Shown here in pieces: positions 17,914 to 26,248 of a DNA stretch of 64,000 bases; position 1 is the first letter of the stretch; every line of letters starts with the position of its first letter. The position numbers were made by a program, and so were the translations under genes. The notes under the pieces were generated by a model. The model saw nothing but the letters and a program-made list of their open reading frames with translations, ran no database searches and was not told the origin of the DNA. Source of the DNA: Gilliamella apis (lineage in GTDB: Bacteria; Pseudomonadota; Gammaproteobacteria; Enterobacterales; Orbaceae); NCBI RefSeq assembly GCF_030758615.1, contig NZ_CP132381.1, positions 1,550,001-1,614,000 on the forward strand. Reading direction: 5' to 3'.

Positions 17914-20301
17914 ATGAAATTTAGTGAAAGTTGGCTACGTGAATGGATCAATCCAGAAATAAGTAGCGATAAATTATCAGATCAGTTAACCATGGCTGGT
18001 TTAGAAGTAGATGATATTGAAAAAGTTGCTGGTGATTTTACCGGTGTTGTGGTGGGTAAAGTTGTTGAATGTAAACAACATCCAAATGCTGACAAATTAC
18101 GAGTGACCAAAGTAGATATTGGTAAACCTGAATTATTGGATATTGTTTGTGGTGCACCTAATTGCCGTCAAGGTTTAACTGTAGCTTGTGCCACAATTGG
18201 TGCTGTATTACCTGGTGATTTTAAAATCAAAGCAGCAAAACTTCGTGGTGAACCATCGGAAGGGATGTTGTGTTCTTATTCTGAGTTAGGCATTTCTGAC
18301 GATCATAATGGAATTATTGAATTACCAGAGGATGCCCCTTTAGGACAAGATATAAGACAATATTTAAATTTAGATGATGTAATGATTGATATTAGCGTTA
18401 CACCAAATCGTGCCGATTGTTTTGGTATCATTGGTGTCGCGAGAGATATTTCTGCTGTAAACAATATCCCAATGAAAGAACTAAAAGTTGAAAATATCAC
18501 TCATACAATTAATGATACTTTACCTATTCAGGTTAATGCAGCTAAAGCAGCCCCTCGTTATTTAGGTCGTATTATCAAAAATGTTAAAGTTGATGCTTTA
18601 ACTCCGCTATGGATGAAAGAAAAGTTACGTAGAGGTGGTATTCGTTCTGTTGATGCCATTGTTGATGTTACTAACTACGTTTTATTAGAACTCGGTCATC
18701 CAATGCACGCTTTTGACTTAGCTGAGATTGAGAAGGGCATTGTTGTGCGTTATGCCAATAAAGATGAAAAGCTTGTCTTACTTAATGGTAATGAGGTTAA
18801 GCTTGATGAAAAAACATTAGTCATAGCTGATCAGCAAAAAGCATTAGCAATCGCAGGTATTATGGGCGGTGAAAAATCAGGTGTAACTGCATCAACGAAA
18901 GATATTTTCCTTGAATCAGCGTTCTTTTCTCCATTAGTGATAACGGGTAAAGCACGTGAATATGGTTTACATACTGAAGCTTCTCATCGTTATGAAAGAG
19001 GTGTTGATCCTTATTTACAATCAGCTGCAATCGAAAGAGCAACTCAATTGATTGTTGAAATCTGTGGCGGTGAAGTAGGACCTATTACTGAAGTTGTGAA
19101 TGAGAATGAGCTTCCAGTTCAAGCAACAATTGAATTACGTCGAAACAGAATTGATCGCATTATTGGTTATCATATTGAAACTCAAAAGATTACCGATATT
19201 CTTGTAAGATTAGGTTGTGAAGTTATTTATAATGATGATAGTTGGAAGGTTAAATCACCTAGCTGGCGATTTGATTTACAACTCGAAGAAGATCTTGTTG
19301 AAGAGGTTGCACGGATTTATGGTTATAACAATATTCCTAATGTGAATATGAAAATTGAATCTGTGATGAAGCCAAAACCGGAAAATAAAATTTCTTTATC
19401 TAGAGTAAAAAATCTACTAGTGGACAAAGGTTATCAAGAGGCCGTTACTTATAGTTTTGTTGATCCTAAAATTCAGCAAACATTACATCCACAACAACCA
19501 CAGATTACATTACCGAACCCAATTTCGAGTGAAATGTCGGTTATGCGTTTATCATTATGGTCTGGTTTATTAGAAGCAGTTTTATATAACCAAAATCGCC
19601 AACAATCTCGTATGCGATTATTCGAAACTGGATTACGATTTATACCTGATGAAAGCTGTGAATTTGGTGTTCGTCAAGAATTAATGTTATCTGGCGTTAT
19701 TACTGGAAATTTATATGAAGAGCATTGGACATTACCTAAACAAAATGTCGATTTTTATGATGTAAAAGGTGATTTAGAGCAGTTATTTATTCTTTTAGGT
19801 TGTTCTGATGATATTGAATATCAACGTTCGGAACTTGATGCATTACATCCAGGACAAAGTGCAGTAATTCTTTTTAATGGCGAAGTTATCGGCAATTTTG
19901 GTGTTTTACACCCTGAAATTGAAAAAAAATTATCTTTAAACAGTAAAACGCTTGTTTTTGAAATAAATTTAGCTAAAATTAATGATAAAAAAGTGCCTGT
20001 TGCTCAAGAGCTATCTAAATATCCATCAAATAAACGTGATATAGCTGTCGTCGTATCAAATACAATTCCAGCAGCGGATATTATCTCTGAGTGTAAGCGT
20101 GCTGGTGGTGAGCAACTAGTAAAAGTTAACTTGTTTGATGTTTATCAAGGTGATAAAATTGACAAAGATCAAAAAAGCCTTGCTATCAGTTTGATTTTAC
20201 AAGACAAATCACGTACACTGGAAGAAGAAGATATAACAAACATTGTAAGCAATTGTGTTATTGCTTTACAGAATCGTTTCAATGCCTTATTAAGAGAATG
20301 A
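17914..20301 (+). CDS. pheT: Phenylalanyl-tRNA synthetase beta subunit
   Basis: A 795-residue protein (the E. coli length). It contains the tRNA-binding OB domain (about 40-150, with [21 protein letters not shown]), B3/B4 editing domains, a B5 domain, a catalytic-like core and the C-terminal ferredoxin-like anticodon-binding domain ([12 protein letters not shown]). It supplies tRNA binding and hydrolysis of mischarged Tyr-tRNA-Phe. The gene ends five bases before ihfA, continuing the operon as in E. coli. Confidence 0.97.
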
Positions 20302-20306
20302 TAATT

Positions 20307-20600
20307 ATGACATTAACTAAAGCTGATATTGCAGATCGTCTTGCCGATAAATTTGATATTGATCGTCAAGAAGCTAAAGTCCTTGTTGAACTCTTTTTTG
20401 AAGAGATTCGCGTTGCTTTAGAAAAAGGTGAACCTGTTAAACTTTCTGGATTCGGCAATTTTGCTGTTCGTGATAAAAATTCACGTCCAGGTCGTAATCC
20501 TAAAACAGGTGAGAGTGTTGATATCTCAGCTCGACGAGTTGTCACATTTAGACCAGGTATTAAATTTAGAGAACGAATTGAGAAAAATTTAACTTTATAA
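20307..20600 (+). CDS. ihfA: Integration host factor alpha subunit
   Basis: A 97-residue DNA-bending protein (E. coli 99). [16 protein letters not shown] marks the start at 20307; an in-frame ATG further upstream lies inside pheT and is not conserved. The beta-arm [20 protein letters not shown] carries the Pro that intercalates into the DNA minor groove. It pairs with IHF-beta (not in the window) for nucleoid organisation, recombination and promoter architecture. It is last in the pheST-ihfA operon. Confidence 0.96.
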
Positions 20601-22010: not shown

Positions 22011-23951
22011 ATGTACCTGCAAACCAACAATAATAAACTTGAATTACTTAGTCCAGCGAAAAACATAGACATTGCCAAACAAGCAATCTTACATGGGGCT
22101 GATGCAGTTTATATTGGAGGCCCGCATTTCGGTGCCCGTCATAATGCCGGTAATTCAGTCAGTGATATAGCCGAATTAGTTGAGTTTGCGCATCGTTTTT
22201 ATGCCAAAGTTTTTGTCACATTAAATACTATTTTGCACGATAATGAACTTGAGATGGCTCAGCAATTGATCTGGCAATTATATGATGCGGGAGTTGATGC
22301 CTTAATTGTTCAAGATATGGGCATATTAGCCATGGATATTCCGCCGATAGATTTACATGCTAGCACGCAAATGGATATTAGAACCCCAGAAAAAGCTAAA
22401 TTTCTTTCTGATGTTGGTTTTTCACAAATAGTTTTAGCTCGAGAATTAAACTTAACTGAAATAGCGAATATTCATCAACAAATAGATGCCAATATAGAAT
22501 TTTTTATTCATGGGGCTTTATGTGTTGCATTTTCAGGTCAATGTTATATTTCTCATGCTCAAACGGGCAGAAGTGCAAATCGAGGTGATTGTTCGCAAGC
22601 ATGCCGTTTACCATTTACATTAAAGGATGATCAAGGTCGTGTTGTTGCTTATGAAAAACATCTTTTATCAATGAAAGATAATAATCAATCCGAAAACTTA
22701 ATCGAATTGATACAAGCTGGAGTTAGGTCATTTAAAATAGAAGGACGTTATAAAGATTTAAGTTATGTAAAAAATATAACTGCTTTTTACCGTAAAAAAC
22801 TAGATGAAATTTTAGAAAAATCGGATGATTTTGTAAGTGCATCAAGTGGTAGAACTCAGCACTCATTCACTCCAGACCCAAATAAAACATTTCATCGAGG
22901 TGCTACTGATTATTTTGTTCGGGGTAGACAATCCAATATTGGCGCTTTTGATTCACCTAAATTTATTGGCTTACCTATCGGTGAGATGACGAAAGTTACT
23001 AACCAAGCAATTGATATTGAATCTGAAAAAGTTTTAACTAATGGTGATGGATTAAACGTTATGGTAAAGCGTGAAATCGTAGGATTCAGGGCTGATAAAG
23101 TTGAAAAAATTGCTAATAATCATTATCGAGTGTTTCCTAATGAATTACCTAAGGTATTTCATTCCTTAAAATTACCTTATCAAATTAACCGTAACCTAGA
23201 TCATAATTGGCAACAAGTTTTATTAAAAGAATCGAGTAATCGTCGAATTGGTGTAGCATTTGAATTGATAAATCAATCAAATGTTGTTCAATTGATAGCA
23301 ACGAGTGAAGAGGGCTGTAGTGTAAAAATTGCTTTAAAAGGTGAGTTTGAATTAGCTGAACAATCTGATAAAGCTCTCAAAAATATAAAAGATAGCTTAT
23401 CAAAACTTGGTCAAACGATATATTACCTTACTGATTTAGAGGTTAATTTGACCGAGATATTTTTTATTCCAAGTAGCCAATTAAATCAATTACGACGAGA
23501 TATTATTGATAAATTAACATTGGAACGGCTAACTCATTACCAAAGAAAGTTACGTAAACCACAAACGGAACCTGCGCCAATTTATCCAAAAGAGCATTTA
23601 AGCTTCTTAGCAAATATTTATAATCATAAGGCTAGAGAATTTTATGCGCAGCATGGCGTTAAACTAATTGAAAGTGCTTTTGAAGCACATGAAGTTAAAG
23701 ATGATGCGCCATTAATGATTACAAAACATTGTTTGAGATTTGCGTTTAATTTATGTCCTAAACAAGCTAAAGGTATTCAAGGTGTGAAAACAAAAGTAAC
23801 ACCAATGAAATTAGTACAAAATAATAATGAAGAATTAATACTGAAATTTAATTGTAAAGCCTGTGAAATGCAAGTTTGGGGTAAAATCAAAAATCATATT
23901 TTAAAAATGCCATTACCAGGAAGTGAATTGATTTTATTGACCAATAAATAA
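22011..23951 (+). CDS. rlhA: 23S rRNA 5-hydroxycytidine synthase RlhA (U32 peptidase family)
   Basis: The protein has 646 residues (E. coli YdcP/RlhA 653). The N-terminal U32 domain includes ELLSPAKNIDIAKQAILHGADAVYIGG and the U32 signature region with GRSANRGDCSQACRLPF near 195; the cysteines there and in CLRFAFNLCP are likely ligands. The DUF3656 middle domain and a C-terminal Cys pair (KFNCKACEMQVWG) complete it. It hydroxylates C2501 of 23S rRNA in E. coli. It is longer than the TrhP/YegQ and UbiU relatives, which supports the RlhA call. Confidence 0.88.
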   Translation: MYLQTNNNKLELLSPAKNIDIAKQAILHGADAVYIGGPHFGARHNAGNSVSDIAELVEFAHRFYAKVFVTLNTILHDNELEMAQQLIWQLYDAGVDALIVQDMGILAMDIPPIDLHASTQMDIRTPEKAKFLSDVGFSQIVLARELNLTEIANIHQQIDANIEFFIHGALCVAFSGQCYISHAQTGRSANRGDCSQACRLPFTLKDDQGRVVAYEKHLLSMKDNNQSENLIELIQAGVRSFKIEGRYKDLSYVKNITAFYRKKLDEILEKSDDFVSASSGRTQHSFTPDPNKTFHRGATDYFVRGRQSNIGAFDSPKFIGLPIGEMTKVTNQAIDIESEKVLTNGDGLNVMVKREIVGFRADKVEKIANNHYRVFPNELPKVFHSLKLPYQINRNLDHNWQQVLLKESSNRRIGVAFELINQSNVVQLIATSEEGCSVKIALKGEFELAEQSDKALKNIKDSLSKLGQTIYYLTDLEVNLTEIFFIPSSQLNQLRRDIIDKLTLERLTHYQRKLRKPQTEPAPIYPKEHLSFLANIYNHKAREFYAQHGVKLIESAFEAHEVKDDAPLMITKHCLRFAFNLCPKQAKGIQGVKTKVTPMKLVQNNNEELILKFNCKACEMQVWGKIKNHILKMPLPGSELILLTNK

Positions 23952-24029
23952 TTATAGTCAAAGAATCGAAATTTACTGAATAACTCAGTTCTTTTTAAAA
24001 GAAGAATTGAGTTCGTAATAATGTATTAT

Positions 24030-24057
24030 ATTTAACATAATATACATTATTCTAACT
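24030..24057 (-). other. dif-like XerCD site, inverted relative to dif
   Basis: On the minus strand this 28-mer has the AATAATGTATATTATGTTAA core, identical to dif over the last 20 positions: the inner XerC-arm bases, the centre TGTATA and the whole XerD arm TTATGTTAAAT. The outer XerC arm (AGTTAGA) differs. It points opposite to the dif at 25266. The plus strand just left of it (AATAATGTAT, 24018-24027) is a partial inverted copy, so the region could fold into a hairpin. Confidence 0.7.
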
Positions 24058-24249
24058 TTAACAAACTGATTTATAATGAAATTATCTCAAAAGAAAAGGG
24101 CGGTTATATTACTCCTTTAATAACTCCCAAAATAATAATTTATTTATTATTAATAACAAAAATCATTATAGTAGCACTCAACTAATGATCTTATATTAAT
24201 AATTGTTTAGAAGCTTATATTTATTAAAGCATTATAAAATAAGCAATAT

Positions 24250-24263
24250 TTGACTTGAATCAA
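24250..24263. promoter_or_regulatory. FNR-type palindrome upstream of the DUF1870-like gene
   Basis: TTGACTTGAATCAA matches the FNR consensus TTGAT-N4-ATCAA at 9 of 10 positions and lies 90 bp before the start codon. The fnr gene is 1.3 kb downstream. A CRP role cannot be excluded. Confidence 0.4.
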
Positions 24264-24352
24264 TTCTTATTGTGATAAATATTATGGATTTTATTCAATA
24301 GTTTTATGACAAAAATTATGATATAGACCCTTTTCATTAGCTAACAGTTTAT

Positions 24353-24646
24353 ATGACTAATATCGAATTGAAAGCGCTTAGGCGTTTATTTTTTCTTGAT
24401 GTTGCTGATGCCGCAACATATATCGGTAAATGCTCAAAGCGAGCATGGCAATATTGGGAAAGTGGAAGCAGAAAAATTTCAGATGATGTTATAAACATCA
24501 TGAATAAACTTAAAGAAGAAAGGACTGAATTACTTTTATTATTACAGACTGATAACTTATTCAGTAATTTGGTTTATTCAAGGTTAATTGATTCAGTAAA
24601 AGCTGAGCTTTATTCTAAAGGTTTTATTGATAAAATAATCTATTAA
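24353..24646 (+). CDS. DUF1870/YdiL-like small helix-turn-helix protein
   Basis: A 97-residue protein. The opening NIELKALRRLFFLDVADAA, then W-Q-Y-W-E-S-G and an ISDDVINIMNKLKEER helix, follows the pattern of E. coli YdiL (MNAYELQALRHIF..., WRQWENGK), a DUF1870 protein with a lambda-repressor-like HTH. It is shorter than YdiL (118), mainly in the middle. It probably binds DNA; it may be the element's own regulator or a host gene trapped beside it. The following replication remnant begins only 17 bp later. Confidence 0.6.
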   Translation: MTNIELKALRRLFFLDVADAATYIGKCSKRAWQYWESGSRKISDDVINIMNKLKEERTELLLLLQTDNLFSNLVYSRLIDSVKAELYSKGFIDKIIY

Positions 24647-24662
24647 GTTTACATCATAAATA

Positions 24663-25237
24663 ATGTATAACACTGTTTTTCTCTTTCAATTGAAATTTGA
24701 GGCTCGTTTAAAGCATACATATTTAGAAAAACATAATATACCCAGAAATTTATTTAAATTCATTAAATATCAGAAAGATAACGAAAAAAAGGAAAAAATG
24801 TTATTAGAGAGTTATGGCTAAGTTCATTTAATGACATTTTATTAGCAATTAGAGGTGCAGAAATGAATATTTATGATGATAACAAGATTAGACGATTATT
24901 GAATGATAGCTTTTTTACAATTACAAAGACGGGAAAAATGTCTTATTCACGAGCCAATAAAATTTATCAGTTTTATCGTTCATTATTAAATGATGGTTAT
25001 CAATTTGTTCGTAGTTCGATGCCTCGTAATACTTTCTGGCGTTATGAGCAAAATTTATTATCTATTGGTTTAAGTAAGTTGCAATTACAAAATCTGCAAC
25101 AACAGAAAAATAATGTAATTCCGATGTTTAGAGTTATTGATATTGATTTTAATAAACAACGTTCAGCGTGGTATCAAGAACCGACATCATTTTATGATAA
25201 CAATGAAAACCTTTTATTATTTAAATTTGCATCATGA
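24663..25237 (+). pseudogene. Decayed filamentous-phage replication protein (gene II/X family), C-terminal part, frameshifted
   Basis: Two open pieces join by a -1 shift. The first (24663-24821) carries FEARLKHTYLEKHNI, the conserved ExRLk.kYL pattern of phage II/X replication proteins. The second, open from about 24791 through 25237, carries ELWLSSFNDILLAIRG, MSYSRANKIYQFYRSLLNDG and RSSMPRNTFWRYEQNLLSIG, which match the C-terminal region of that family. The large N-terminal nickase region is missing because an unrelated gene abuts it. The shift falls at an A-rich tract that includes A_AAA_AAG (24785-24791), a -1 slippery heptamer. A product starting at the ATG at 24863 (124 residues) is possible but would not be a nickase. 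Confidence 0.7.
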
Positions 25238-25265
25238 TTTAGCACCCCTCTTATAAAACTGTATT

Positions 25266-25293
25266 GGTGCGCATAATGTATATTATGTTAAAT
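25266..25293 (+). other. dif chromosome-dimer resolution site
   Basis: The 28-mer consists of GGTGCGCATAA (XerC arm), TGTATA (centre) and TTATGTTAAAT (XerD arm), identical to E. coli dif from memory. XerC and XerD recombine chromosome dimers here under FtsK control. Its presence marks the replication terminus. It is also the integration target for Xer-dependent phages, which fits the remnant on its left. Confidence 0.93.
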
Positions 25294-25342
25294 AATATAA
25301 GATGAAATATATCTTCTATAATCTTTCTATCCTACTCGACTT

Positions 25343-25374
25343 ATTTTGATTTTTAGTAAATTAAAAATCAAAAT
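25343..25374. repeat. 12-bp inverted repeat between dif and fnr
   Basis: ATTTTGATTTTT (25343-25354) faces its exact complement at 25363-25374 with an 8-nt loop. It may be a terminator or a protein site; no T run follows on the plus strand. Confidence 0.4.
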
Positions 25375-25534
25375 AATTTACCAAAAAATGGTAATTTAAT
25401 TATTTAATAATAATTTTCTATTCCCTTTCTATTTATTGAATAATAAAATATAAACTATATAGTTAGTTTTTGTTTTATCATAAAATATGGTAATCTTAAC
25501 AATCAAAATCTTTAACGGTTCTATTTAGGTTTAT

Positions 25535-26248
25535 ATGCATACTATTTATAAAACATTGCGCAGCAATAGTTATTCCGTTCCTTGTGAATTATGTAGCATT
25601 GGTGGATTGTGTATCCCAATGTTACTTAATAATTCACTAAGTGATGTTTTAGAACGGAAAAAATCATATTTAAAAGATGAAATCGTTGTTAAATCAAAAA
25701 CTCCATTTAAGAAGTTTTATATTGTTCATTCTGGCGCATTAAAGACGTTTGTCACTACTCCAGAAAATACTGAACAAATTAATGGATTTTATTTACCTGG
25801 AGATATCGTTGGTTTAGACTCTATTTCGACTAAAGTCTATAATAGTAATATTCAAACATTAGGTAATACCCTGCTTTGTGAACTTTACTATGATGAATTA
25901 ATGTCATTAATTGATAGTAACAAAGATGTTCGTGATTTGATATTTAAGTTATTAAGCACAGATATTTATAATTATCAAAAATTAATTCTATGTTATTCGC
26001 AAAAAAAATCTGAAGAACGTCTTGCTACTTTTATCTATTCTCTTTATCTTAGATATCAGCAAAGAGGACATACCTCTTTAAATATTAAACTAGCAATGAG
26101 TCGTGCTGATATAGCCAATTACTTAGGATTAACGATTGAAACAGTCAGCCGAAATTTAACAAAATTACAAGAACAAAATATTTTAACAGCCAAAGGAAAA
26201 TTCATATATATTAATAAGTTAGAAGCTTTAATAGAAATATGTAACTAA
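25535..26248 (+). CDS. fnr: FNR, oxygen-sensing transcription regulator
   Basis: The protein has 237 residues (E. coli 250). Three N-terminal cysteines, C17, C20 and C26 in CELCSIGGLC, and C115 in LLCELYY correspond to the four ligands of the FNR [4Fe-4S] cluster. The cyclic-nucleotide-like beta-roll is followed by a dimer helix and a Crp-type HTH with the recognition helix containing ETVSR, which reads TTGAT half-sites. Without oxygen it dimerises and switches on anaerobic genes. It lies 240 bp from dif. Candidate targets in the window include the site at 24250. Confidence 0.93.
   Translation: MHTIYKTLRSNSYSVPCELCSIGGLCIPMLLNNSLSDVLERKKSYLKDEIVVKSKTPFKKFYIVHSGALKTFVTTPENTEQINGFYLPGDIVGLDSISTKVYNSNIQTLGNTLLCELYYDELMSLIDSNKDVRDLIFKLLSTDIYNYQKLILCYSQKKSEERLATFIYSLYLRYQQRGHTSLNIKLAMSRADIANYLGLTIETVSRNLTKLQEQNILTAKGKFIYINKLEALIEICN

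Follow-up and report, generated by a model that had tools for sequence, protein, structure and literature searches.

Why should a bacterial chromosome carry, close beside its dif site, a second dif in the opposite direction and with one arm degenerate? A dif site, through which freshly replicated chromosomes are separated, has two arms, for XerC and for XerD, around a centre, and the main dif is usually described as single per chromosome. The window analysed here, the whole stretch of 64,000 nt, covers positions 1550001-1614000 of the complete 2.71-Mb chromosome of the bee-gut bacterium Gilliamella apis, and an earlier note on this DNA had suggested that the inverted site in it was either a folded phage attP or the product of an inversion.

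Two dif sites in the Gilliamella apis window

Two perfect copies of the 21-nt core ATAATGTATATTATGTTAAAT lie in the window, at 24030-24050 on the minus strand and 25273-25293 on the plus strand; with up to three mismatches allowed, the 64 kb held three matches against 0.07 expected. The plus-strand copy belongs to a canonical dif, site A (25266..25293, plus strand), with its XerC arm at 25266-25276, its centre at 25277-25282 and its XerD arm at 25283-25293, a division that agrees with PMC4246890. Site A is the E. coli dif letter for letter, and a 30-base query with that site matched 4787 of 5426 complete E. coli genomes exactly over 28 or more consecutive bases. It has the whole E. coli-like 28-bp layout of a chromosomal dif (XerC arm, 6-bp centre, XerD arm), while site B (24030..24057, minus strand) has the centre and XerD arm only. 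The core scan thus bears out what the earlier note had described, namely an inverted site with an intact XerD arm (24030-24040) and centre (24041-24046) and a divergent XerC arm, AGTTAGAATAA (24047-24057), alongside a true dif.

The two sites lie between a gene of the peptidase U32 family (22011..23951, plus strand; PF01136, 1.1e-75) and a gene for an Fnr-like regulator (25535..26248, plus strand; 212.3 bits, under the PRK11161 cut-off of 228), both also placed by synteny. The named relatives of the latter are all from Gilliamella, the closest being from G. apis NO3 (96%), and a perfect 15-bp inverted repeat with a 6-nt loop lies between dif and fnr at 25341-25376. From left to right, GC skew stays positive between about 8 and 25 kb, keeps near zero up to about 37 kb, turns negative as far as about 43 kb and is mixed beyond that point, a profile that fits, short of proof, the plausible view that the window is the terminus of the Gilliamella chromosome. 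Both recombinases are encoded above cut-off (XerC, 349 bits against 335; XerD, 379 against 330), as is the alpha subunit of IHF (20298..20600, plus strand; NF001401, 144.1 bits against 111), a host factor that could act at B.

The surroundings of B have features of their own. A partial inverted copy to its left, from which the earlier note had proposed that the strand could fold, forms an imperfect palindrome (24017..24051, plus strand) that is predicted to fold at -6.3 kcal/mol (z -3.59; equalled by 0 of 200 shuffles). This fold is not kept in relatives: counted by site copies rather than genomes, B segments had a median z of -1.0 (8 of 28 below -2) and A segments one of -1.3 (12 of 36), and a conserved hairpin at B was rejected since the former fold no better than the latter. 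What relatives keep outside B is not the fold but a 13-mer half-site that the earlier note had missed. In the window it is AGTTCGTAATAAT (24010..24022, plus strand), 7 nt outside the XerD arm of B and expected 0.03 times in the window; read on the other strand it is an XerC-like arm, which XerC might contact. Of 23 Gilliamella B sites, 14 have the pattern ATTATTRCGAA[CT]T at a distance of 6-7 nt from the XerD arm, on its outer side, as a near-invariant block among variable neighbours; the other nine lack it, as do the B sites of the Orbus group. At up to three mismatches the half-site accompanies 16 of 26 B sites against 3 of 30 A sites (shuffles, about 0.7 and 0.8), A and B being told apart here and below by a regular expression on the XerC arm that was written after the arms had been inspected. 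Half-site and B lie on the fnr side in four genomes (G008, L042; G024, L056; G030, L062; G031, L063); in most others the half-site is on the U32 side.

Adjoining the XerC arm of B is an IHF-like motif (24059..24071, minus strand), which in the window genome has one mismatch to what we take to be the IHF consensus. Scored against that consensus, it was exact at 18 of 26 B sites, including all three g3 copies, and present at up to one mismatch at 25 of 26, against 0.2 and 3.9 in a control that was a mononucleotide shuffle, with related species counted although they are not independent. None of 30 A sites had it, either exactly or at up to one mismatch.

The inverted pair in Orbaceae and the inversion of its interval

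Regions of relatives were oriented by their flanking genes and scanned at up to three mismatches. An unbroken arrangement of U32 gene, inverted dif pair and fnr occurs in 30 of the 44 Orbaceae genomes searched (26 of 35 in Gilliamella, 1 of 2 in genus g2, 3 of 4 in g3, 0 of 2 in g4 and 0 of 1 in g5), a count that includes G028, whose second core has 2 mismatches, and excludes G020, in which, as in G018, the cores lie on separate contigs. With up to three mismatches allowed, the 28-mer was matched in 30 of 35 Gilliamella genomes. With up to one allowed, the 21-nt core was matched in 39 of the 44 Orbaceae genomes, on both strands in 30, and a backwards-sequence control found nothing in the same 44. 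In 247 genomes drawn from the order and tallied by eye, among them one with two same-strand matches, the core occurred on both strands in 12 of 18 Orbaceae and in 0 of 229 genomes of other families, 170 of which had it on one strand.

The geometry of the pair is constant. XerC arms lie inside and XerD arms point outward in all 30 pairs, the cores are 151-2469 nt apart, and the centres of the two sites are equal in every pair, as are the spacers of a C module. Altered centres are altered twice: TCTATA is found in both sites of G022 and TATATA on both flank contigs of G018. Four of the 30 pairs are A-A rather than A-B (G001, L034; G013, L048; G029, L061; G036, L169); these contain long perfect inverted copies of flank or interval, which reach 1113 nt in the single-contig genome G029. 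One core only was found in seven genomes (G011, G026, G027, G035, G039, G042, G043) and none in five (G016, G019, G032, G033, G041). In five genomes with intact surroundings (G026, G027, G039, G042, G043) the single dif is A-like with its XerD arm facing fnr, so A on the fnr side is probably the ancestral arrangement, and the pair is not essential. Between U32 and fnr, G. bombi (G016) has a dif-like site that is decayed and shortened in its centre (L104 6839-7000), and the core was found nowhere else in this assembly at up to one mismatch.

In the window the segment between the cores, which would be the one that inverts, measures 1222 nt (24051..25272). Its counterparts in seven genomes are short, 151-193 nt; five of these, from Gilliamella, align throughout and two, from g3, mainly at the B end. 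In G003, G007 and G012 site A is the one nearer U32, in G017 and G022 the one nearer fnr. Between G012 and G022 the left flank is 83% and the right flank 92% identical in the same direction, and the interval is 90% identical in the opposite direction; opposite-direction identity of the interval is 95% for G017 and G023, 94% for G012 and G017, and 75% for G007 and G017. On a tree of up to four proteins (support for the sister grouping of G009 and G028, 0.70), the 26 labelled genomes require at least five changes of orientation, G006 being scored both ways and the four A-A genomes, G018, G020, the seven one-core and the five no-core genomes being left out. The labels cluster somewhat on the tree (P 0.03), and flipping may therefore be slow in some lineages.

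Inverted forms are thus seen directly between species; within assemblies they are seen indirectly. The contigs of three drafts (G003, G010 and G018) suggest that both orientations were present in one culture, a pattern that inverted duplication could mimic. One contig of G003 runs U32-A..B-fnr and another joins an identical 1388-nt U32 flank to B. In G010 the first contig reads U32-B..A followed by 105 nt that start like the fnr flank, and the second reads fnr-A..B-fnr with 1023 nt in exact mirror image. The U32 and fnr contigs of G018 both start at the first base common to A and B. Beyond the core, the outer flanks have in common just 13 nt in G003, 1 in G010 and 4 in G018; G006 (135 nt shared) and G002 (at least 285 nt) were left out as evidence of coexistence, as was G035, in which the fnr contig begins at the core and the other flank is missing from the comparison. 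Outer flanks are frequently present as perfect inverted copies that end sharply and measure 13 to 1113 nt, so copying between the arms happens too. On the question of a promoter switch for fnr, the one region scanned (L054) had 7 promoter-like sites against 5.2 in shuffles.

We consider it likely that the host XerCD recombinase inverts an ancient dif module at the Orbaceae terminus, B being an old second dif that flips with A. A and B would form an inverted pair with XerC arms inside and XerD arms outside; XerC and XerD of the host would recombine one with the other, turning the interval and leaving the flanks in place; and phage replication modules and other genes would enter the interval later, at A in one clear case. 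The sequences themselves show the conserved pair and its geometry, the matching centres, the opposite intervals of sister species and the conflicting junctions inside assemblies, and XerC, XerD and IhfA are all encoded; the part of XerCD as the agent is inferred. Several observations tell against it: the placement of the half-site, since its presence on the fnr side together with B in four genomes is not given by inversion of the interval alone; the four A-A pairs; the genomes with a single dif; the B sites without a half-site; the clustered orientation labels; and a possible inverted duplication.

Phage genes and other cargo at the locus

The interval of the window holds the C-terminal piece of a filamentous-phage gpII replication protein (24863..25237, plus strand; PF05155, 1.6e-22; TIGR01629), with homology interrupted by 4 stops extending back to 24704. 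We regard this remnant as a later guest. Among the 44 Orbaceae genomes gpII scored over the cut-off in three, with a weak fourth, and pieces of it lie at or beside the locus in G000, G003, G023 and G034. The element of G023 (L055 8000-10510), of about 2.2 kb, has a near-full gpII with one stop and two small ORFs of 73 and 96 aa, neither of which had a Pfam match; at the DNA level the gpII region shares about 65-66% identity with those of IKe and other filamentous phages, and the element looks like a satellite of a filamentous phage integrated at dif. Positions 1-180 of the G023 interval match G012 at 98%, and past the element positions 106-194 are repeated in direct orientation at 89%, with a direct half-site, GGTTCGCATAATG, at the far junction (L055 10333-10345). 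As both the repeat and the far junction are direct, the insertion was of the ordinary direct kind and stands apart from B. Zot was found in none of the 44 Orbaceae genomes, with a control that matched 5 of 14 genomes and is little measure of sensitivity for filamentous phages, and viral contigs gave 0 matches to two exact B patterns, exact matching being the only form of this search.

Of the two explanations offered by the earlier note, inversion is well supported, in the form of repeated inversion of the interval between the sites; the idea that B is at present a phage attP is not. In seven genomes the interval next to B measures just 151-193 nt, too short for a phage gene; gpII had no match anywhere in six of them, and in the seventh, G003, the gpII piece lies outside the pair. 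Relatives thus carry B without phage genes, the kind of outcome that the earlier note had itself named as refuting its reading, and the unconserved fold, the separate gpII junctions and the lack of viral matches likewise count against a phage attP. A single phage insertion as the source of B was likewise rejected, on the short intervals without a phage gene and on the G023 gpII junctions that lie apart from B.

Other contents vary. The window has a 97-aa Aca2/YdiL-like ORF (24353..24646, plus strand; PF08965, 2.4e-13) with 31 homologues, the named ones from Gilliamella; against the VC1465 family of Xer activation factors it scored 15.5 bits (NF040522, E 0.014), below the cut-off of 70. In G028 a 577-aa LamB-type porin is carried as cargo between the inverted dif sites (L060 8251-9984). 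Window positions 24632-24668 match a second place in the genome (G000:C1:656919-656957) at 87% (E 9e-4), and AAATAATGTATAAC within them is perhaps the remnant of an att half-site.

Origin, function and relation to known Xer systems

A possible, if unlikely, origin of B is an ancient integration of CTX type, in which the XerC arm of dif received a folded, single-stranded attP, with B as the fossil, even if B is now a partner in inversion. The half-site that stands just outside B at 14 of the 23 Gilliamella sites would suit this account, for such an event could leave behind this very order, a half-site and then an inverted site; so would the strong fold in the window, the gpII pieces at or beside the locus in four genomes, and the description of CTX attP(+) as two inverse sites in PMC4246890. 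Yet the fold is unconserved (median z -1.0 for B, -1.3 for A), Orbus-group B sites have no half-site, the sole near-complete gpII element has direct junctions away from B, and the viral contigs lacked both B patterns. We find it quite improbable that the pair is instead a mobile dif module of the Acinetobacter C-module type that settled at dif with exchangeable cargo. XerC arms inside in all pairs and the widely varying contents (the LamB porin of G028, the Aca2-like gene of the window, the gpII elements) are what one would expect of such a module, but its position is fixed between U32 and fnr and the short intervals are geneless. Moreover, no copy of the pair was found elsewhere: all located pairs lie by fnr or U32, core matches in the 44 Orbaceae genomes revealed no second place, and the extra cores are contig ends of the same locus.

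That XerCD is uninvolved, and that both the conflicts and the inversions arose through assembly or through RecA or template switching acting on short inverted repeats, seems to us highly improbable. The perfect inverted copies of outer flanks with sharp ends in several genomes are in its favour. Against it, the two flanks have a repeat of only about 22-34 nt in common in G010, G018 and G003, which is itself a dif core, the centres have changed together in G022 and G018, and chance contig ends are unlikely to fall exactly where A and B begin to agree, as they do in G018.

Recombination of A with B by XerCD, our preferred reading, leaves the function of the pair to be considered. FtsK works from the XerD side of dif, and it is our guess from the geometry that a double dif approachable from both sides would be of benefit. 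The dimer-resolution locus of Orbaceae might have been rebuilt as a two-faced, self-inverting site, in which FtsK on either replichore would meet an XerD face first, IHF and the half-site would hold B in check, and the flip would be a by-product or a reset; we think this an unlikely proposal. Whatever its function, a main dif inside an inverted pair across much of one bacterial family departs from the single dif normally described, and a flipping pair would put a basic cell-division site to an unusual use. With the pair one can test how XerCD and FtsK decide whether to resolve or to invert, and what roles a second dif, IHF and the half-site have at the terminus; its presence also goes some way towards explaining the accumulation of phage modules and cargo genes at this locus. 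A literature search by title, with most subscription papers outside it, returned no report on Xer recombination in Gilliamella or on an inverted chromosomal dif pair.

Satellites of the TLC type have a gpII-like replication gene and no coat genes, and the gpII element of G023 resembles them in its location at dif and in that no Zot was found. The attP of TLC has a degenerate XerD arm according to PMC4246890, unlike B, in which the degenerate arm is that of XerC; a TLC-like attP was rejected for B because the degenerate arm is the other one. With the folded attP of CTX type (IMEX) the locus shares two inverse dif-like sites, an XerC half-site by the inverted site and filamentous-phage genes nearby. 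It differs in that the fold is unconserved in Orbaceae and in that the centre of B equals that of dif, which makes duplex recombination possible; CTX prophage sites have incompatible centres, as stated in PMC4246890.

The pdif C modules of Acinetobacter are like the Orbaceae pair in their inverse Xer sites, XerC arms inside, equal 6-bp spacers and inversion. For plasmids of Acinetobacter, it is reported that inverse pdif sites whose spacers are equal recombine by inversion, with two forms in one culture and one minor form making up 8% of reads (PMC13141974). The sites of these modules lie either on plasmids or at a distance from the main dif; the latter is considered to stay outside dif modules since joining one would impair dimer resolution (PMC12907356). 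In Orbaceae, by contrast, the main dif is itself one end of the pair, the location does not vary, and an IHF-like motif accompanies B. The E. coli-type chromosomal dif/XerCD system is matched in the identity of A, in the encoded XerC and XerD and in a plausible terminus position; it is unlike Orbaceae in that 30 of the 44 genomes have a second, inverted dif with an equal centre 151-2469 nt away.
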